A stretch of DNA of 64,000 nucleotides from NCBI GenBank assembly GCA_031432545.1, contig JAVKGX010000001.1, positions 516,411 through 580,410 on the forward strand. Reading direction: 5' to 3'. Made by a program: the position numbers and the translations under genes. Source of the stretch: Armatimonadota bacterium (GTDB lineage Bacteria > Sysuimicrobiota > Sysuimicrobiia > Sysuimicrobiales > Sysuimicrobiaceae). This document shows positions 28,957-43,156 of the stretch, in pieces (position 1 is the stretch's first letter; every line of letters starts with the position of its first letter). Below the pieces are notes generated by a model. That model worked only from the letters and a program-made list of their open reading frames with translations. It ran no database searches and was not told where the DNA came from.

Positions 28957-29019
28957 TCGCTGGGCGCGTGCTTGAGATCTACGGGGCAGCCGGTCGGGCC
29001 GGCTGAGGAGGGGACGAAG

Positions 29020-29472
29020 GTGGACCGCAAGACCAAGATCCTCATGATCGCGGTCGGAGCACTCGTCGCCGTGGCGCTCGCCGTGTGGGGTCTGATGGTG
29101 ACGGGCGGAACGGCGATCGGCCAGCAGCTCACGATCGGGTACGTGGACATGCAGCGGGCGCTGGACAGCCATCCGAGGAAGGCCAGTTCGGAGGAAGCTC
29201 TGAATCAGTTCGCTCGCGCGCGCATGACGCAGGCGCAGCAGCAGGCGCGCGGCAGGTCGCAGGCGGAGCAGACGCGCCTGATGCAGCAGGCGCAGCAGGA
29301 GATCCTCCGCCGGCGGACCGAGCTGCTGTCGGCCCTGGACAAGGACATCCGGGCCGCGGTCGAAAAGGTGGCGCGTGAAGCGGGCGTCATGATCGTCCTG
29401 GATCGTTCCGTCGTGCTGTACGGAGGCACGGACCTGACGGAACCCGTGATTCGGGAACTGAAGGGGAACTGA
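29020..29472 (+). CDS. Skp/OmpH-family periplasmic chaperone, first of three
   Basis: 150 residues from GTG 29020, with GAGGAGGGG a few bases upstream. An N-terminal hydrophobic segment (ILMIAVGALVAVALAVWGLM) acts as signal or anchor. The OmpH fold follows: the edge strand IGYVDMQRALDSHP, a helical arm rich in Gln and Arg (ARMTQAQQQARGRSQAEQTR), and the closing segment AREAGVMIVLDRSVVLYGGT with DLTEPVIRELK at the end. Skp trimers hold unfolded outer-membrane proteins on their way to BamA. Two further members follow within six bases each. Confidence 0.85.
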   Translation: MDRKTKILMIAVGALVAVALAVWGLMVTGGTAIGQQLTIGYVDMQRALDSHPRKASSEEALNQFARARMTQAQQQARGRSQAEQTRLMQQAQQEILRRRTELLSALDKDIRAAVEKVAREAGVMIVLDRSVVLYGGTDLTEPVIRELKGN

Positions 29473-29477
29473 TCCGG

Positions 29478-30674
29478 ATGCACGTGCTTCGGCTCGCCGC
29501 TGCGCTGTCGGCGGCGCTCTTGCTGACCGGTTGCGCCGGCACCCCGCGGTCGGTACCCTCGCCGAGCCCGGTGGCGGCGACCCCGCGCGCCACGCGCGTG
29601 GGACTGGTCGACCTGGACCGCGTCGCCGAGCAGCATCCCCGGGCGCAGGAGCTGGCGGCGCTGCGCCGCAGGGTCGCCGAGACCGAGGTGGCAATGCGCA
29701 TCCCGCTCGCGCCGCCCCAGATCGCGCAGCCGCAGATCCGCGACCTCGGACCGCGCCTGCAGGCCCGCACCCGGGAACTGCTCGAACAGCAGGCGGCGGA
29801 GCTCCGCCGGACATACCAGGAAGAACTCCGCGTGCTCGAGCGGCAGGGCAAAGAGGAGGTCGAGCGGTTCGCCCGGCAGGTCCAGGCCGAGCAGCAGGAA
29901 AAGCTCACCCAGCGGCAGGAGGCGCTGCAGGCGGAACTCCACGCGCGTGCGGAGGCCAAGCGCAAGGAGATGGAGCCCAAGCTCCGCGCCTACGAGGGGG
30001 AGGTCGCGCGGGAGTACCGGATCCCGCTGCTCAACCTGCGCCTGAAACTCGAGGCCGTGCAGCACACCGATCGGCAGCAGTTCGAGAGGCTGGTGGCCGA
30101 GTACGAGAGGCTGCAGCGAGAGCGCGAGGCGAAGGTCGCTGCCTTCCAGGCCGAGCAGCAAAAGGAGTTCGAGGCGTTCGTCAAGGAAAGCGAGGAGCAG
30201 GCGCGCTCGCAGATGGAAGCCTACCGCGCGGAGCTGGAAGCCGAGGCGCGTCGGCGCATCGAAGAGCGCGAGGCCATCGTGCGCAACCGTCTGCGCGAGG
30301 CGGCGGCGGCGCGAGAGCGCCAGTTCCGGGAGGTCATGCGCGCCAGGGAGCGCGAGCTCGTCAGTGGTGCGCAGGGAGAGGCCCGGGACGCGGTGGCGGC
30401 TGCGCGGCGCGAGCTGGAGCGGATCGTCGAGGAGGCCCGCGCGAAGTATGTGGCAGAAGAACGCGCGCGCCAGGAGCAGTTGCAGAGCCAGCTGGTGGCC
30501 CTGCGCACCCAGCAGGCGAACCTGGAGACCGCGATCCTCGCGGAGGTCCGCATAGAGGTGGCCGCGATCGCTCTGGAGCAGAACCTGGACGTTGTGCTGG
30601 TGCGCTACGTCTCCCACATCGGTGGCGTCGACATCACCGACCAGGTGCTGCGTCGATTGAGGAACAAGAGGTAG
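29478..30674 (+). CDS. Large OmpH-like lipoprotein with long coiled-coil arm
   Basis: 398 residues, more than twice the usual Skp length. A lipobox LLLTGC puts the modified Cys at 19. The OmpH body is split: the first strand is TRVGLVDLDRVAEQHPRAQE (residues ~38-58), and the closing part is LEQNLDVVLVRYVSHIGGVD and ITDQVLRRLRNK at the C-terminus. Between them lie ~280 residues of charged heptad-like sequence very rich in Glu, Arg, Gln and Ala (LARQVQ, QEALQAELHARAEAKRK, ARRRIEEREAIVRNRLREA). If it folds like Skp, the arms would be unusually long and could span much of the periplasm. The lipid anchor fixes one end in a membrane. Function otherwise as for Skp; inferred. Confidence 0.8.
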   Translation: MHVLRLAAALSAALLLTGCAGTPRSVPSPSPVAATPRATRVGLVDLDRVAEQHPRAQELAALRRRVAETEVAMRIPLAPPQIAQPQIRDLGPRLQARTRELLEQQAAELRRTYQEELRVLERQGKEEVERFARQVQAEQQEKLTQRQEALQAELHARAEAKRKEMEPKLRAYEGEVAREYRIPLLNLRLKLEAVQHTDRQQFERLVAEYERLQREREAKVAAFQAEQQKEFEAFVKESEEQARSQMEAYRAELEAEARRRIEEREAIVRNRLREAAAARERQFREVMRARERELVSGAQGEARDAVAAARRELERIVEEARAKYVAEERARQEQLQSQLVALRTQQANLETAILAEVRIEVAAIALEQNLDVVLVRYVSHIGGVDITDQVLRRLRNKR

Positions 30675-30680
30675 TTCTGG

Positions 30681-31151
30681 ATGTCGTGTGTCGGACGCCG
30701 TGTGTTTGCGGTCGGTCGTCGGTCCTCTGTGCGCGCGACCCGTCGCCTCCGGTTCGCCGTCGGAGGGTTGGCGGCGCTGATCGTCGCGCTCGTGTCGGTG
30801 GGCTGCCAGCGGCCCCAGATCGGTGTCGTGGACACGCAGCGCATCCTGGAGGAGAGCGTGCTGGCGCTGTCGCTGCAAAAGCAACTCAACGACCGCGAGA
30901 AGTTGATGGCGGCCGACCTGGCCGTCGCCGCCCAGCGCCTGGACCGCAGGGCGCTGGAGGAGCAGCGGTTGCTGTACCTGCGCGAACTCGAGCAGATGCG
31001 CGCCGACTTCGAGGAGCGGCTGAACCGAAGGCTGCGGGAGGTGGTCCAGGAGGTCGCGCGCGAAGAGAGGATCCGCGTGGTCCTCGCGAAGGGCCCTTCG
31101 GTCTACGGCGGGAGGGACCTGACGAATCGGGTGATCGAGAGGTTGAAGTAG
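30681..31151 (+). CDS. Skp/OmpH-like lipoprotein, third of three
   Basis: 156 residues from ATG 30681. A long basic N-terminus leads to a lipobox VSVGC (Cys42); GTG 30729 would give a more usual signal length. The mature part is a short Skp: [20 protein letters not shown], helical arm ([20 protein letters not shown]), closing segment [20 protein letters not shown] and [10 protein letters not shown]. The C-terminal pattern V-YGG-DLT is shared with the first copy, so these two are the closer relatives. Six bases separate it from the preceding gene and 67 from lpxD. Confidence 0.82.
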
Positions 31152-31218
31152 CGGGCCCAGCGCACTCCGCGGGGGTGGGGTCGCCGTGGCGGCCCCTTTC
31201 GCATATCTGGGGGCGGCG

Positions 31219-32211
31219 ATGAGGCTGAGCGAGATCGCAGGCCGGCTCGGCGGCGAACTCCGGGGCGACGGTGACATTGAGATCGTCCGGGTCGCCCAGC
31301 CGGACCGAGCCGGACCGGACGCGATCGCGGTCTGCGCCACGCCGCGCGCGCTGGACGAGGCGATCGCGGCTGGGGCGGGCGCGGTTGTGGTGCGTTCTGG
31401 GGAGGAACTGCCGGTTCCCTCGGTCCGGGTCGCCGACACCCGGCTGGCGCTGGCCGTGCTGCTGGAGATGTTCGGGCCCGCTCCGCACCGTCCCCTAGGT
31501 GTGCATCCCACGGCGGTGGTCGCGCCCACCGCGCAGCTCGGGCCGCAGGTCGCGATCGGCGCCCACGCGGCCATCGGCGAGGGTGCGCGGGTCGGCGCGG
31601 GCACGGTCATCCACGCCCACGTCTGCGTCGGCCCCGAGGCGACCGTCGGCGAGCGGTGCGTGCTCTACCCACACGTCGTGGTGGGCGAGCGCGTGCGGGT
31701 GGGCGACCGCGTGATCCTGCATGCAGGTGTGGTCCTGGGAGCGGACGGGTTCGGGTTCGTGGCGGGGCCGCACGGCCATCGCAAGATCCCGCAGGTCGGC
31801 ACCGTGGTGGTCGAAGACGACGTGGAGATCGGGGCCAACACCACGGTCGATCGGGCCACGCTGGGGGAGACGCGAATCGGTGAGGGGACGAAGATCGACA
31901 ACTTGGTCCAGATCGCGCACAACGTCCAGATCGGGCGGCGCTGTCTGATCGCCGCTCAGGTCGGGATCGCGGGCAGCTCTGTGATCGAAGACGGGGTCGT
32001 CCTCGCCGGCCAGGCGGGGGTCTCCGATCACGTGCGGATCGGCGCCGGCGCGGTGGTGCTGGGGAAGGCGGGCGTGACGAAGGACGTCCCGCCGGGGGCG
32101 ACCGTCTCCGGCTTTCCCGCCCGGGCGCACCGCGAGGAACTCCACGAACAGGCCATGCGCCGGCGCCTGCCCGAGCTGCTGCGCCTGCTGCAGCAGCGCC
32201 GGCGCCCTTGA
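31219..32211 (+). CDS. lpxD: UDP-3-O-acylglucosamine N-acyltransferase
   Basis: Third enzyme of lipid A synthesis; it adds the N-linked hydroxyacyl chain from acyl-ACP. 330 residues from ATG 31219, preceded by GGGGG at five bases and fitting the family start ([19 protein letters not shown]); GTG 31186 is an alternative. After the ~95-residue uridine-binding domain come hexapeptide repeats forming a left-handed beta-helix. ADGFGFV and the catalytic His234 in [10 protein letters not shown] match the family. The C-terminal helices bind ACP. The gene leads the lipid A part of the block. Confidence 0.95.
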
Positions 32212-32244: not shown

Positions 32245-34017
32245 ATGGTGGCGAAATCGGCGTGGTGGTTGTGGGTGATTGTCCCGATGGCGCTGGGGTT
32301 GCCCCCGGCGCACGCGCAGCTGCCCACGGTCGTGGTTGTTCCGGCCGCCTCGTCGGCCGCCATCACCGTCAACGGGATGCACGTGATGCGGCTGCACGGC
32401 CCCGACGCGGAATCCCGTGCCCAGGCGGTGGCGCACCGTCTGCGCGCTGTGCTTTCCGTCGCGCCGGTGCGCATCGAGGTGCAGCCGGATCGGACCGGCG
32501 TCCACCTGGTCGTGAACGGCCACCGGGCGGTGACCGCGGACACCGCTCAGGCGCGGGCAAACAACACCTCTCCGTACTTTCTAGCCCTGGCCTGGGCAAA
32601 GGCGCTGCGGCGAGCGCTGGACTTCCGGCAGATGTGGCTGCGCCCGTCTGCCGTGGCGGTGGCGCCGGGAGCCGAGGCGACGGTCGAGGTGCTGACCGTC
32701 CCGCGCGGCGCGGTCCACATCGGCGATCACGACCGCGGGGTGGCAGAGGTGCGTGCCGACGGCACCGACCGGTTGGTCGTGCGGGGCGTGTCGGCCGGGA
32801 CGGTCCGCGTCCCGATCTCCTACGAGGGGATACGGCGTGAACTCGTCGTCTCCGTGCGGCCGCTGGCCGGCGGCCTGCCCGCCTCGGTCCGTGTCGTCGT
32901 CACCGGCAATCCGGCGGGCGCCGACGTCGTGCAGGAGGCCGTCGCCCGCAGGCTCGAGCAGGAGGCCCACCTGGGCCCGGGCGCGTTCGTAGAAGTCCCG
33001 GCGGTACTGGCCGGACCGCTGGCGGAGGGTCGGCGGCACGTCGCGGCTGTGCCGGTGCGTGTCCGCAGCCCGTTCGCGTTGCCGGTCGAGGGGATCGTAC
33101 GGATCGTGGTCGACAACGAGCGCGCGACTCTCGCGCAACCCTCGCGCCTGTACGTCAGCAACAACCCCGAGCGGCTCGCCATGGACGGTACTGTGTTCCG
33201 CGAGACGATCGAGCCCGATACGGCGATCCGCATGCTGTACCACCACAAGAACGGGTCCGACAAAGACAAGGTCGTCACCGTCCGCATCCGCAACCCGAAC
33301 GGACAGCCCGCGCGGGTGCACCTCCAGGTGGCCACACCGAGGGCATGGCACGACACGATGGCCGTCGGCCACGCCGCGGCCCGCCGCTTTTTGGAGATGC
33401 TGATCTCGGGTGCAGGATACGTCCTGGAGATCCCCGCCGGCGGGGAGCACACGTTCACCGCCCAGCGGATGCCACCCGCATTCGTCGTGTCGGGTCTGCT
33501 CCAGGCGCAGCTGCTCGCCGGTGGACCGTTGGAGATCGCGGTCGCGGTCCGCGCCGCATACCTGCTGGAGCGCACCGTCACGCGCGACGTCGATCCGACG
33601 CCGCTGAGCCACCCGCGGGGTATCTTCTGCACGCCGGAGGTCGAGATCCGCAAGACGCTGGCGGTCGGGTCTGACGAAGTGGTCGAAATCGGGTCCAGCG
33701 GGCGCCTTGCGGATCTGCGCACCGGCAGGCTCCTCGCGGGCGACTACGGGGTGCTGTACCGGCTGCGCCTGGAGCTCCACAACCCCGGGGAGACGGAGGT
33801 GGAGGCGGATCTGTGGTTGCGTGCGGCCGGCGGTCCCGCCTACGCGACGTTCGTCGTCGACGGGCGCTTGGTCGATCTGTCCTATCTGGCGCCCCACCGT
33901 GAGGTGGCGCTGGTGTCGGTCCGATTGGCTCCCGGGCAGTCGGTCCCGGTGGAGCTGCTGACGATGCCGGAGGCGGCGTCGTCTTATCCGCTGAAGATCA
34001 CGTTGAGGGCGAGGTGA
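32245..34017 (+). CDS. Exported protein of unknown function inside the lipid A operon
   Basis: 590 residues from ATG 32245, with GGAG six bases upstream. Signal peptide with cleavage near PAHA-Q (24/25). Residues ~30-130 hold a small alpha/beta unit (AVAHRLRAVLSVAPVRIEVQ, then VHLVVNGHRAVTADTAQARA, then SPYFLALAWAKALRRALDF). Residues ~135-206 resemble the T2SS/T3SS pilus-formation N-domain (VAVAPGAEATVEVLTVPRGA, VHIGDHDRGVAEVRADG, LVVRGVSAGTVRVPI). Residues ~310-590 are beta-rich, Ig-like in feel, with GHAAARRFLEMLISGAGYVL and VSGLLQAQLLAGGPLEIAVA. No barrel signature and no C-terminal Phe. The stop overlaps lpxC by four bases, so it is made with the lipid A enzymes. I do not recognise a named family; a periplasmic envelope factor is the cautious reading. 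Confidence 0.7.
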   Translation: MVAKSAWWLWVIVPMALGLPPAHAQLPTVVVVPAASSAAITVNGMHVMRLHGPDAESRAQAVAHRLRAVLSVAPVRIEVQPDRTGVHLVVNGHRAVTADTAQARANNTSPYFLALAWAKALRRALDFRQMWLRPSAVAVAPGAEATVEVLTVPRGAVHIGDHDRGVAEVRADGTDRLVVRGVSAGTVRVPISYEGIRRELVVSVRPLAGGLPASVRVVVTGNPAGADVVQEAVARRLEQEAHLGPGAFVEVPAVLAGPLAEGRRHVAAVPVRVRSPFALPVEGIVRIVVDNERATLAQPSRLYVSNNPERLAMDGTVFRETIEPDTAIRMLYHHKNGSDKDKVVTVRIRNPNGQPARVHLQVATPRAWHDTMAVGHAAARRFLEMLISGAGYVLEIPAGGEHTFTAQRMPPAFVVSGLLQAQLLAGGPLEIAVAVRAAYLLERTVTRDVDPTPLSHPRGIFCTPEVEIRKTLAVGSDEVVEIGSSGRLADLRTGRLLAGDYGVLYRLRLELHNPGETEVEADLWLRAAGGPAYATFVVDGRLVDLSYLAPHREVALVSVRLAPGQSVPVELLTMPEAASSYPLKITLRAR

Positions 34018-34844
34018 CGCGCAACGCCGTGCAGGGCGGGGTTCCGCACAGGACCATCCGCCGGGCGGTGGAGATCTCTGGCGTTGGCATCCACAGCGGC
34101 CGGCCTGCGCGCGTACGGATCCATCCCTCGCAGCGGCCCGGCATCGTGCTGGTACGCGGCCACGTCGAGACGCGCGCGGATCTGGATGCTGTGACCGAGA
34201 CCTCTCGTCGCACTGTGCTGGCCGGTGTGGCCACAGTGGAACACCTCATGGCCGCGGCGTTCGCGCTGGGCATCACCGCGCTGCGGGTCGAAGTCGCCGG
34301 CGACGAGGTCCCGATCGCCGACGGCAGCGCGAAGCCCTTCGCCGACGCCCTTGCCGACGCCGGTATCCGCGACCTCCCGGAGGTGATGCCGCGACTGCGT
34401 GTGGTCTGCCCCGTGTGGGTGGCCCGGGGTGACGCCCTGGCGGCGGCGTTCCCCGCGGACGCGTTGCGTGTCACGTACGTCGTCGCGCTGCGCGACGCGG
34501 GCTTCCAGGTGTGGGATGGGGACATCACACCCCAGACCTTCATGCACGACCTGGCACCTGCGCGGACATGGGGGTATGCGGACGAAGCCGACGGGCTGCG
34601 GGCGGCCGGACTGGCCACCGGGGCCGACGCACACAACACCTTGATCCTCGAGGGCGGCGGATACCGGAACGCGCCGCGTTTTTCCGACGAGCCGGTCCGC
34701 CACAAGGTCGTCGACCTGATCGGCGACCTCGCGCTGCTCGCCGCCGGGCTGGAGGCGCACGTCGTCTGTCTGCGCGGCGGGCACGGGCTCCATCTGGCGC
34801 TGGCCCGGAAGATCCGAGAGGCGGTCGGCCCCCCGGCGTCGTAA
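34014..34844 (+). CDS. lpxC: UDP-3-O-acyl-N-acetylglucosamine deacetylase
   Basis: Zinc amidase for the committed step of lipid A synthesis. 276 residues, about 25 shorter than E. coli LpxC. Conserved features: ISGVGIHSG at the N-terminus, VEHLMAAAFALGI with Glu76 and the zinc ligand His77, APARTWGY in the second domain, and HKVVDLIGDLAL with zinc ligands His230 and Asp234; His257 in GGHGLH is the general acid-base. The shortening lies mainly between the two domains. GTG 34014 overlaps the stop of the preceding exported protein (GTGA). In many diderm Terrabacteria lpxC is fused to fabZ; here the two are separate, 42 bases apart. Confidence 0.94.
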   Translation: MTRNAVQGGVPHRTIRRAVEISGVGIHSGRPARVRIHPSQRPGIVLVRGHVETRADLDAVTETSRRTVLAGVATVEHLMAAAFALGITALRVEVAGDEVPIADGSAKPFADALADAGIRDLPEVMPRLRVVCPVWVARGDALAAAFPADALRVTYVVALRDAGFQVWDGDITPQTFMHDLAPARTWGYADEADGLRAAGLATGADAHNTLILEGGGYRNAPRFSDEPVRHKVVDLIGDLALLAAGLEAHVVCLRGGHGLHLALARKIREAVGPPAS

Positions 34845-37009: not shown

Positions 37010-38164
37010 GTGCCAGGCACGGGCCCAGCTCCAACCATCTTCTTGCTGGCCGGCGAGGTCTCCGGCGACGTGCAGGCCGCGCATCTGGCGCGGGCCATCG
37101 GCAGGCTCGCCCCACACGCGCGCCTGTTCGGTGCGGGGGGACCGCGCATGGCCGAGGCGGGTGTCGAGATCCTCGAGGACACTGCCCAGTGGGGTATCGT
37201 CGGGTATCTCGAGGCGTACCTACGCATCCCCCTGTTCGCCCGCCGTCTGCGGGTCATCCTCCGCCGGATCGTGGACAGCCGGCCCGACGTCTTGGTGCTC
37301 GTGGACTTCCCGGGGTTCAACCTGCGGGTCGCCGGGCGCCTGAGCCGTCGCATCCCCACCGTGTACCACTTCCCGCCGATGGCCCACGGCCGACGCGGCA
37401 ACCGCGCCGCCGTGCTGGCCCGCCTGCCGGTGCGCGTGCTGGCGCCGTTCGCGTTCGAGTTCGAGAGATACCGGGCGGCGGGGGCGGATGTTACGTTCGT
37501 GGGTCACCCTGCTGTGGATCTGGTGCACCCGGGAGTCCCCCGCGAAGAGTTCTGCCGGCAGGTCGGGTTGGACCCCCTCCGGCCGCTCGTGGCGCTGTTG
37601 CCGGGCAGCCGCCGCCAAGAGGTCGAGGCGCTGCTGCCGGTGATGCTGCGGGCCGCGGAGGTTGCGGCGGCGCGCCTGCCCGGCGTGCAGACCTCGGTTG
37701 CGCTGGCATCGGAGCGGCTGGAGCCCCACGTCTTGGGGGCGCTGCGGTCAACGCGGGTGGACGCACCGGTGGTCAGGGGTCGCACCTACGACCTGTTGGC
37801 CGCCTCCGATGCGGCCGTCGTGGCCTCCGGCACGGCCACGCTGGAGGCGGCGCTGCTGGGCGTACCGATGGTCATCGCCTACCGCGTGTCCCGCGCGACG
37901 GAGTGGATTGCCCGTCGGGTGGCGACGCTGCCGTGGATCGGGATGCCCAACATCCTAGCGGGTCGGTACATCGTCCCCGAGCTGCTGCAGGAAGACTGCC
38001 GCGCCGATCGCGTCTGCGAGGAACTCGTCGGCTTGCTTACCGACCGCGAACGCGCCGAGCGAATGCGCCGTGATATGAAGGAGGCGACGCGTGCCCTCGG
38101 CCCGCCGGGAGCCCTGCATCGGGCGGCCGTCGAGGTCCTGGCCGCGATCCACGCTCGGCGATGA
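37010..38164 (+). CDS. lpxB: Lipid-A-disaccharide synthase
   Basis: 384-residue GT19 glycosyltransferase joining lipid X and UDP-diacylglucosamine into the lipid A disaccharide at the inner membrane. Motifs: LLAGEVSGDVQAAHLARAI, GAGGPRMAEAGVEIL, DFPGFNLRVA, GHPAVDLV, ALLPGSRRQEVEALLPVML, and ASGTATLEAALLGVPMVIAY for UDP binding, then PNILAGRYIVPELLQ. GTG 37010 is a best guess: it lies seven bases after lpxI and leaves only an eight-residue lead before the first strand. LpxK, which would act next, is not in the window. Confidence 0.94.
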   Translation: MPGTGPAPTIFLLAGEVSGDVQAAHLARAIGRLAPHARLFGAGGPRMAEAGVEILEDTAQWGIVGYLEAYLRIPLFARRLRVILRRIVDSRPDVLVLVDFPGFNLRVAGRLSRRIPTVYHFPPMAHGRRGNRAAVLARLPVRVLAPFAFEFERYRAAGADVTFVGHPAVDLVHPGVPREEFCRQVGLDPLRPLVALLPGSRRQEVEALLPVMLRAAEVAAARLPGVQTSVALASERLEPHVLGALRSTRVDAPVVRGRTYDLLAASDAAVVASGTATLEAALLGVPMVIAYRVSRATEWIARRVATLPWIGMPNILAGRYIVPELLQEDCRADRVCEELVGLLTDRERAERMRRDMKEATRALGPPGALHRAAVEVLAAIHARR

Positions 38165-38179
38165 GCGGCCTCTGCTACG

Positions 38180-38749
38180 ATGACAGCGATGCGCGCGCAC
38201 TGCGTCCTGCTGACCGTGGCGCTGGTCTTCCTGACGGCTGCGGCGTGCGCGGGCCCCGGTGCGCCGGCGCAGACGCCCCCGCCGCCGGCTGCCGCGTCCC
38301 CGACACCGGTACCCTTCCTCGAAATGAGCGGGAGTCGGCTGGTCGGCACGGACGCGCAGGGGCGAAAGGTGTGGGAGCTGCAGGCCGAAGGCGTGGTCGT
38401 AGACGACGCGCAGCAGAACGTGACGCTCCAGCGTCTGAGCGGGTACTTCTTCGCCGAGGACGGGCTGGCCGTGCGCTTCGAGGCCGCACGCGCCAGCTAC
38501 AGCGTTCCCGACCGCGTCATCCGGCTGGAGGGCGCGGTGCGTACGGTCGCGGCGGACGACCGCTGGTTCGCAGCCGACCGTGTGATCTACGTAGCTGCGG
38601 ACAACCGGGTCGTGGCCAGCGGCAACGTCCGGTTCCGGTACGGTACCATGACGGTCCAAGGCAGCGAGTTGCGCGCGGACGTCGCGCTGCGCCGCGCACG
38701 GTTGACGGGTGCGGTGCGCGCCACGGTGCGCGAGGGAGAACGACCGTGA
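38180..38749 (+). CDS. lptC: LPS export system protein LptC (lipoprotein form)
   Basis: 189 residues. The N-terminus is a lipoprotein signal (LTVALVFLTAAAC) followed by a Pro/Ala linker, instead of the transmembrane anchor of E. coli LptC. The mature part is a beta-jellyroll: RKVWELQAEGVVVDDAQQNV, LQRLSGYFFAEDG, FEAARASYSVPDRVIRLEGA, ADRVIYVAADNRVVASGNVR. It links the LptBF(G) pump to the LptA bridge. ATG 38189 is an alternative start; either follows lpxB within 25 bases. Four-base overlap with lptA. Confidence 0.88.
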   Translation: MTAMRAHCVLLTVALVFLTAAACAGPGAPAQTPPPPAAASPTPVPFLEMSGSRLVGTDAQGRKVWELQAEGVVVDDAQQNVTLQRLSGYFFAEDGLAVRFEAARASYSVPDRVIRLEGAVRTVAADDRWFAADRVIYVAADNRVVASGNVRFRYGTMTVQGSELRADVALRRARLTGAVRATVREGERP

Positions 38750-39555
38750 GGGGCGCAGCACGCCTGGTGGCGTCACTGGCCTGCGCGGGGATGCTGGCGG
38801 TACCGGCCGCCCCGTCCGTGGCGCAACCTGCCGGCCCGATCGAAGTCCGCGACGCGCGCAGCGCACAGTACGACGCCGGGACGGCGACCTGGCTGCTGGA
38901 AGGCCGGCCGGTGCGGGTGCGCCGAGGGGACTTCGAGATCGCCGCGGCCCGAATCCTGTACCGGGAGAAGGAGCGCCTGGCCATCGCCCAGGACGGGGTG
39001 CGGGCCCGGCACAAGGGCCAGACGGTCACTGCGGACCGGGCGCGTGCAGACATGGTTCAGCAGGCGGTCGCGCTGGAAGGCAACGTCGTGCTGGAATACC
39101 AGACGGCCGAGGGTCTGGCGGTGCTGCGGGCGCCGGCGGCCGACGCGGACCTGCGCGTCGGACGGGTGCTGGCCCGGGGCGGGGTGCATGCGACCTGGGG
39201 CCGGGTGGAGTTGCGCTGCGAGAGCGCCGCCGCGGATCTGCGCGCGCAGACCGTCACCGCGACCGGGGGCCCGGTGGCGATCGTGGAGGGAGTCCGCGTG
39301 GAGGCAGATCGGATGCAGGCGGATCTGGTGCCTCAAGTGCTCTACGGTACGGGCGGGGTGCGGGTTGCCGATCCGCGGCTCGTCGCCACCGCCCACGAAC
39401 TGGAGATCGGCTGGGGGGAGCGCGTCGCCATGCTGCGCGGCGACGTGGTCGCGCGGCACGGCCCCGACGTGCTGCGCGCCGCCGCGGTGCGCTACGAGTT
39501 CGCAACCGGAAGAATGGTGGCGACGGGGAGGCCACGGGTTGTCGTCCATCCCTGA
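38746..39555 (+). CDS. lptA: LptA/OstA-type LPS transport periplasmic protein
   Basis: 269 residues with a signal peptide ending PSVAQP. The rest is a run of OstA-type beta repeats, longer than the ~185 residues of E. coli LptA: EVRDARSAQYDAGTATWLLE, FEIAAARILYREKERLAIAQ, VTADRARADMVQQAVALEGN, VEADRMQADLVPQVLYGTGG, LRAAAVRYEFATGRMVATGR. The extra repeats could lengthen the periplasmic bridge. GTG 38746 overlaps the lptC stop (GTGA), with GAGGGAGA just upstream. Confidence 0.88.
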   Translation: MRGAARLVASLACAGMLAVPAAPSVAQPAGPIEVRDARSAQYDAGTATWLLEGRPVRVRRGDFEIAAARILYREKERLAIAQDGVRARHKGQTVTADRARADMVQQAVALEGNVVLEYQTAEGLAVLRAPAADADLRVGRVLARGGVHATWGRVELRCESAAADLRAQTVTATGGPVAIVEGVRVEADRMQADLVPQVLYGTGGVRVADPRLVATAHELEIGWGERVAMLRGDVVARHGPDVLRAAAVRYEFATGRMVATGRPRVVVHP

Positions 39556-41483: not shown

Positions 41484-43156
41484 GTTCCTGGGTGGCCCGG
41501 ACGGAAGGCAACGCGCTCGCGCGGGAAGGCACGAACGCCGCGGCCGCCCACGAGCGCCTGTGGGCCGCAGCACTGACCGTGCTGGTCGGATTGCTATTCT
41601 TCTACGACCTGGGCGCGGCCGCGCTGTGGGACCAGGACGAGTCCAAGTACACCGGCGTCGCGCAGGCGATGCTCCGAACCGGCGACTGGCTCACGCTACA
41701 CTGGAACGGCGAGCCGTGGTTCGTCCATCCTCCGCTGTACATGTGGCTGGTGGCAGCCACCGGCGCGCTGGTGGGCTTCAGCGAGTTCGTCGCGCGCTTC
41801 TGGTCGGCGTTCTTCGCCGCAGCCGGCGTCGGTCTGACGGCCGTGCTCGGGCGGGCGATGTTCTCACCTCGGACGGGTCTGCTCGCGGGGTTCGTGCTCG
41901 CCACGACGCTGCAGTGGTTCGCCCAAGCCCGCATCGCGGTCTTCGACTCCATGCTGGCGTTCTGGATCCTCGGCGTGGTCTACGCCTTCTGGCTGGGCTA
42001 CCGGGGACGGCGGGCCGCCTACCTCTGGGCATTCGTCTGCGCGGCGCTGGGGACGATGACCAAGGGACCGGTCGCAGCCGTCCTGCCGGGGTTGGGCCTG
42101 TTGGTCTTCCTGTGGCGGCGCGGCCAGCTGGATCGGCTGCGCGAGATCCCGTGGGGCAGTGGGCTTACCCTGTACGCCGTGCTCGGCCTGGGGTGGTACG
42201 CCGCCAGCTACGCGCTCCACGGGGAGCCGTTCGCGCGGACGGTGTTCGGCTACTACACGGTGAACCGCTACGTCGGCGTGGTCGAGGGGCAGTCGGGTCC
42301 CCTCTGGTACTACGTGCCGGTGCTGCTGCTCGGTGCCCTTCCGTGGGCGGCATTCTTCCCCGCCGCGTGGGCACACCACGTCCGCCACCGATCCGATGCG
42401 GCGAGCGACCTGGTCGTCACGTGGTGCGTCTTCGTGGTGGTGTTCTTTTCGCTGGCGGGGACCAAACTCCCGAACTACGTCCTCAGCGTGTACCCGATCG
42501 CCGCGATCGCCATTGGCCGCACGTGGGAGGTCGCGATCACAGACGACCGCCCGCAGGCCCTGCGGTCCGGGTGGGCCCTGCTGGGCGTGGTGTTCGTCCT
42601 GCTGATCGTCGGGGTCGCCGCCTACGGGTTGGTGCTGTACCCGCAGGAGTTCCGCCGCGTCGCCCCCGCGTTGGTTCCGACGGTCGGCGCGCTGCTTGTA
42701 GGGGGCGCGACGTCGGCGGTGTTGGGACTGCGGGGCTCGCAGCGGGCGGCGATCCCCGTGCTGGGAGCGTCGGTGGTGGCGTTCTTGCTGCTGCTGATCG
42801 TGCGGGTCGCCCCCGAGATCGAGCGCCAGCGGTTCCATAGGGAGGTCGCCCGCGCGGCGGCCGCGGCGGCGCGGGCGGGCGAGGTGCGGATCAGCCTGTG
42901 GACGTGGAACAGCCTGATCTACTACGGGAACATGGAGTGGCGGTATGCCTGGGACGTATACGAGTTTCGCCGGCTGCTGTGCCGTGTCCATCCTCGTCAG
43001 ACCGCGGTGGTCGTCATGCCGCTTTGGGCCTGGGAGGAATCCATCCGGCCCCTGGCCGGCCGAGCGCTCGTCGTCGAACGCGTCGTGGCCGACCACGTGA
43101 TCCTGCGCAAGCCGTACGGACGCAGCGCGCGCTGCGGCTTCGAACAGGCCATGTGA
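41480..43156 (+). CDS. ArnT-like membrane glycosyltransferase (GT83/PMT_2)
   Basis: 558 residues with about twelve transmembrane helices. The first periplasmic loop carries ALWDQDESKYTGVAQAML, the acidic motif where GT-C enzymes such as ArnT bind the polyprenyl-phosphate sugar and metal; FVHPPLYMWLVAATGAL and FARFWSAFFAAAGVG follow as in the family, with KGPVAAVLPGLGLLVFLW and GTKLPNYVLSVYP further on. A small soluble C-terminal domain closes the protein. It should transfer a sugar from a polyprenyl phosphate to lipid A or another outer acceptor. Position directly after lptF and before a polyprenol-phosphate sugar synthase supports lipid A or LPS modification, but the sugar is unknown. Confidence 0.88.
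   Translation: MSSWVARTEGNALAREGTNAAAAHERLWAAALTVLVGLLFFYDLGAAALWDQDESKYTGVAQAMLRTGDWLTLHWNGEPWFVHPPLYMWLVAATGALVGFSEFVARFWSAFFAAAGVGLTAVLGRAMFSPRTGLLAGFVLATTLQWFAQARIAVFDSMLAFWILGVVYAFWLGYRGRRAAYLWAFVCAALGTMTKGPVAAVLPGLGLLVFLWRRGQLDRLREIPWGSGLTLYAVLGLGWYAASYALHGEPFARTVFGYYTVNRYVGVVEGQSGPLWYYVPVLLLGALPWAAFFPAAWAHHVRHRSDAASDLVVTWCVFVVVFFSLAGTKLPNYVLSVYPIAAIAIGRTWEVAITDDRPQALRSGWALLGVVFVLLIVGVAAYGLVLYPQEFRRVAPALVPTVGALLVGGATSAVLGLRGSQRAAIPVLGASVVAFLLLLIVRVAPEIERQRFHREVARAAAAAARAGEVRISLWTWNSLIYYGNMEWRYAWDVYEFRRLLCRVHPRQTAVVVMPLWAWEESIRPLAGRALVVERVVADHVILRKPYGRSARCGFEQAM

Follow-up and report, generated by a model that had tools for sequence, protein, structure and literature searches.

The described family that comes closest to the gene studied here is DUF3370 (Pfam PF11850), a cyanobacterial family of unknown function for which a literature search under both names found no paper. 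We compare this family with a gene, here called X, in a 64,000-nucleotide stretch of bacterial DNA (the window), where X lies between the lipid A genes lpxD and lpxC. The host belongs to the CSP1-3 lineage, since given the name Sysuimicrobiota (PMC11604079), and its near relatives with a name are MAGs that carry the label Armatimonadota or CSP1-3. When the X family is aligned by hhalign with the proteins L179 and L180, the first of which is a genuine DUF3370 member (genome G364, E 3.4e-205), the match reaches 85% over the whole and 96% (E 3.7e-9) over the second of two predicted jelly rolls. Both families have the motif order SNSPE...G.L, HH, NP, GNYG..Y...NPT in common. They differ in that X carries N-terminal modules and has jelly rolls free of the long inserts seen in the cyanobacterial family. 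The Pfam model itself finds weak matches in 20 of 36 X-family members and none in X, even at E 1; the scores of L162 (14.9 bits), L163 (18.5) and L075 (15.3) stay below the 25-bit gathering score. Searching 61 relatives with PF11850 gave no matching genome at E 0.001, and the Synechococcus control alone matched. The common motifs and profile alignments suggest that the X family is a distant relative of cyanobacterial DUF3370.

Gene X occupies an open frame of 590 codons on the + strand (32245-34017), with a Shine-Dalgarno-like GGAG about 5 nt upstream of its ATG. We read its N-terminus, MVAKSAWWLWVIVPMALGLPPAHA|QLP, as a type I (Sec-type) signal peptide without a lipobox cysteine, covering residues 1-24 (32245-32316, +) with likely cleavage at AHA|Q; the same stretch has low pLDDT in the structural model. 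Because of this signal peptide, we place the protein outside the cytoplasm. X is a genuine gene and no chance frame, since homologues in relatives are 35-53% identical over almost the whole length and dN/dS among close relatives is 0.13-0.27, and X is thus under purifying selection. Pfam and NCBIfam searches with the X protein alone return no match, and with them no known Lpx catalytic domain; an LptA/LptD_N-type domain is matched by the neighbour at 38161-39555 and not by X. Nor do we see an SLH domain, an outer-membrane anchor, a sorting signal or an autotransporter barrel in X. The only matches of X in a phmmer search of PDB sequences are the entries Ika8 and Ika4 (E 5.5e-8 and 0.0023), which align with residues 137-221 (32653-32907) and are probably a coincidence of repeats or composition.

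The neighbours of X are well defined. Upstream lies lpxD (31186-32211, +; Pfam LpxD and Hexapep) and downstream lpxC (34014-34844, +; Pfam LpxC, E 5.8e-72). The TGA of X (34015-34017) overlaps the GTG start of lpxC at 34014, the two forming a 4-nt GTGA (34014-34017, +). Frame, N-terminus and Pfam-named neighbours agree with the original prediction of an exported signal-peptide protein between these genes, and the overlap it described is confirmed. A 4-nt overlap is not special by itself, because fabZ/lpxA and lpxA/lpxI overlap by 4 nt in the same operon; that the dose of X is coupled to LpxC is what we would infer from the overlap. Two details of the cluster were corrected. X had been called the only gene without a known role between bamA and lptF, but it is not strictly alone in this, as the middle one of the OmpH-like genes (29478-30674) gives just a weak match to its family; the cluster end had been called lptF, and this last permease gets a higher score for LptG than for LptF. 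As side observations, three consecutive OmpH-like genes lie between bamA and lpxD (28972-31151), and the open reading frame after lptG (41560-42840), 36-44% identical in relatives, has no Pfam or NCBIfam match.

What kind of protein does this gene encode? An AlphaFold2 model built with 36 sequences has a pLDDT of 92.4 over the whole protein, and its secondary structure sets the domain borders, all on the + strand. Behind the signal peptide comes a small alpha/beta module (residues 28-128; 32326-32628), a mobile domain found also with MscS, M48 peptidases and BsuPI, followed by a predicted Ig-like all-beta domain (residues about 129-205; 32629-32859) and a predicted beta-alpha-beta-beta linker domain (residues about 209-292; 32869-33120). 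The model suggests that the C-terminal half consists of two beta jelly rolls in tandem. The first of them, jelly roll 1 (residues 296-444; 33130-33576), carries the motifs SNxPE, R..LYHHxNG, GH..RF and SG..Q and reaches pLDDT 93.4 when modelled alone; jelly roll 2 (residues 446-590; 33580-34014) carries the G(D/N)YGVxY...NP motif and gives the clearest match to cyanobacterial DUF3370. The tandem label comes from Foldseek, in which jelly-roll, carbohydrate-binding, collagen-binding, PPC and SIDT structures dominate among many beta-sandwich matches, and from a weak profile similarity (57%) between the two domains. Because the TM-scores are low (best about 0.4-0.47), the fold supports calling the domains jelly rolls without pointing to any one binding function; no Lpt, Lpx or Bam protein is among the top Foldseek results, and a search of BFVD returns scattered Ig-like and tail proteins at low TM. 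The model of beta-sandwich domains and the cysteine-free end of the signal peptide bear out the earlier statement that X has neither a barrel nor a lipobox.

Two further known families resemble single modules of X. The alpha/beta module recurs in the N-terminal region of an MscS-type channel (genome G089), whose channel domain is absent from X; it also occurs in short proteins, and beside BsuPI, M48 peptidase or MscS domains we see it at L134:1111-1947, L211:929-2593, L213:722-2389 and L214:583-2394. The Ig-like domain covers the region (135-206) that had been read as similar to PF13629, the N-terminal domain of pilus formation proteins. An all-beta domain is predicted there (129-204), but X has no match to this family (T2SS-T3SS_pil_N), one of 36 family members does (E 5.9e-5), and a secretin or pilus context is not seen.

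We find homologues of X in 33 of 61 genomes searched, and a profile search gives X-family matches in 47 of 386 genomes. The adjacency lpxD-X-lpxC, or X-lpxC, occurs in 18 genomes by tblastn of the window proteins: families f1, f3 and f5 and one f2 genome, G019. This count includes G006 and G040, which were judged by coordinates; the contig of G008 starts inside X, with lpxD beyond view, and that of G005 stops short of lpxD and is uninformative for synteny. Each lpx-linked genome has a single copy of X. The proposed search for X between lpxD and lpxC in related genomes thus finds it in place. Among 16 loci compared, its stop overlaps a possible lpxC start by 4 nt in 12, and an identical GTGA is visible in L042 and L043. 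Yet X does not accompany the lipid A pathway everywhere. In seven f2 genomes (G007, G013, G016, G025, G028, G034, G037) lpxD adjoins lpxC and neither of the two genome searches found a homologue. Seven examined f4/f7 genomes, for f7 a sample, likewise have lpxD next to lpxC with no X between them, and core-only homologues elsewhere. Because the seven f2 relatives keep lpxD-lpxC intact with no homologue found, the protein appears dispensable for lipid A production. LpxC is present in 44 of the 47 homologue-carrying genomes as against 326 of the 386 sampled; in a sample so rich in diderms, we do not count this co-occurrence in favour of an LPS role.

A quick IQ-TREE analysis of 71 sequences unites the 16 lpx-linked Sysuimicrobiota copies tested in one clade (SH-aLRT 99). 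L111, L162, L163, L170 and L049 sit on long branches. Armatimonadota MAGs of Fimbriimonadaceae and Chthonomonas are among those that carry a homologue. The majority of Armatimonadota copies are not near lpx genes; two follow lpxD. In L075 the order lpxD-X-fabZ-lpxA continues with a PEMT-like gene and a Kdo transferase, lpxC being absent at the locus, and in L111 the order is lpxD-X. Since both fall on the Armatimonadota side of the tree, lpx linkage requires three changes, and ancestral linkage with subsequent losses and independent gains are both possible. Around the remaining Armatimonadota copies the neighbouring genes vary, with TPR, PfkB, GT9 and tRNA-synthetase genes among them, and no universal conserved partner gene was found among the non-lpx loci examined. 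Several Armatimonadota-type genomes (L060, L084, L113) have a gene for a TPR-repeat protein immediately 3' of their homologue, and Chthonomonadia-type homologues (L077, L080, L107) adjoin PfkB-family and/or GT9 heptosyltransferase-family genes.

A second recurrent setting is flagellar. In the phylum of genome G301, 18 of 74 genomes carry an X homologue (L216-L233), and in 17 of the 18 loci tblastn matches to FliP, FliQ and FliR cluster with X in the order fliP-X-fliQ-fliR; the remaining locus, L226, is a shorter stretch in which pieces of FliQ and FliR are seen and FliP is not. Pfam matches identify FliP in both L163 and L173, and FliR (Bac_export_1) in L163; FliQ was assigned by position and size, the candidate in L173 having no Pfam match. 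These homologues have the two-jelly-roll core and conserved motifs of X and differ from it in lacking most N-terminal modules, in their frames of about 290-440 aa and in standing beside fliP/fliQ/fliR instead of lpx genes; perhaps they form a part of the flagellum or envelope that has yet to be described. Recoding of TAG in five homologues was considered and rejected: in all five the TAG stands at the C-terminal end after a shared GSNYP motif and is an ordinary stop. Distant homologues occur also in G094 and G368, where the core is joined to Cu_amine_oxidN1 and PKD domains and neither LpxC nor Omp85 is matched, suggesting that both genomes are monoderm, and in a record labelled Desulfotomaculum. 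The original prediction had named two patterns that would speak against it, homologues mostly away from lipid A genes and homologues in monoderms without LPS. For the family at large we find the first (Armatimonadota, fliP-X-fliQ) and, as distant versions in two apparently monoderm genomes, the second; for the lpx-linked clade itself we find neither.

The reading we prefer, to which we give an even chance, is that X is a secreted periplasmic or surface scaffold or binding protein whose gene is expressed together with the lipid A genes in one clade. X would be exported by Sec and be soluble or peripherally bound in the envelope, as a series of beta-rich domains running from the small alpha/beta module through the Ig-like domain and linker to the two jelly rolls. 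In one Sysuimicrobiota clade the gene is fixed between lpxD and lpxC. Because of this position it probably shares a transcript and translational coupling with the lipid A genes, so that its product would be made in step with outer-membrane synthesis. The periplasmic or surface location follows from the signal peptide, and a scaffold or glycan- or envelope-binding role is suggested by the tandem jelly rolls together with the varied, partly envelope-related settings of the relatives. Conserved polar residues (E309, R329, H333, H334, N336, Q420) could instead form a specific pocket or even support an activity.

The main rival, possible though we think it rather unlikely, is that where it is lpx-linked X is a dedicated factor of LPS or outer-membrane biogenesis (periplasmic LPS handling, lipid A modification or regulation of LpxC dose) and that relatives at other loci do different work. 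The lpxD-X-lpxC order with its overlapping stop and start, held across several families of the order, speaks for such a role, as do the loci of L075 and L111 and the PfkB and GT9 neighbours of the Chthonomonadia-type copies. Set against these are the seven relatives in which no homologue was found, the majority of homologues without lpx linkage, the top fold matches free of Lpt, Lpx and Bam proteins, and an LpxC frequency not clearly above background. Of the proposed envelope or LPS factor, the exported protein, its operon and the lpxC junction kept across families in one clade therefore stand, while a specific lipid A or LPS role is not supported; the proposal as a whole is partly supported. 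A cell-surface or S-layer-like protein that coats the outer membrane, perhaps attached via LPS, would suit a modular build of Ig-like domain and jelly rolls, of a kind typical for surface proteins, and the Cu_amine_oxidN1 and PKD domains of the G094 and G368 homologues, as in cell-wall proteins. We hold it to be unlikely: Pfam is silent on X, the anchors, sorting signals and barrels listed above are missing, and a single copy per lpx-linked genome within a biosynthetic operon is unusual for a coat protein. Least probable, and in our view distinctly improbable, is that X entered the operon by chance, was passed down in one clade and has no function connected with lipid A. One event would suffice for a single clade, and other homologues have many unrelated neighbours, but several families retain the junction, and the lpxD-X arrangement appears again in two lineages of Armatimonadota.

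A broader reading, tentative and about as doubtful as a dedicated LPS factor, joins lpxD-X-lpxC (Sysuimicrobiota, some Armatimonadota) and fliP-X-fliQ (the G301 phylum) in one uncharacterised two-jelly-roll superfamily related to DUF3370, which different phyla have fixed in operons for different envelope machines; its members may be periplasmic assembly factors or scaffolds with a partner that depends on the operon.

A position beside lpxC is thus insufficient to name a gene an LPS factor. Because close relatives keep a lipid A operon without X and related proteins stand in other operons, X looks more like a general cell-envelope protein than like a dedicated LPS factor. For an unnamed envelope family found across several phyla, the analysis sets out the domains, gives a distant link to a Pfam family and traces the phylogenetic history, and it marks two operon settings, one for lipid A synthesis and one for the export gate of the flagellum.
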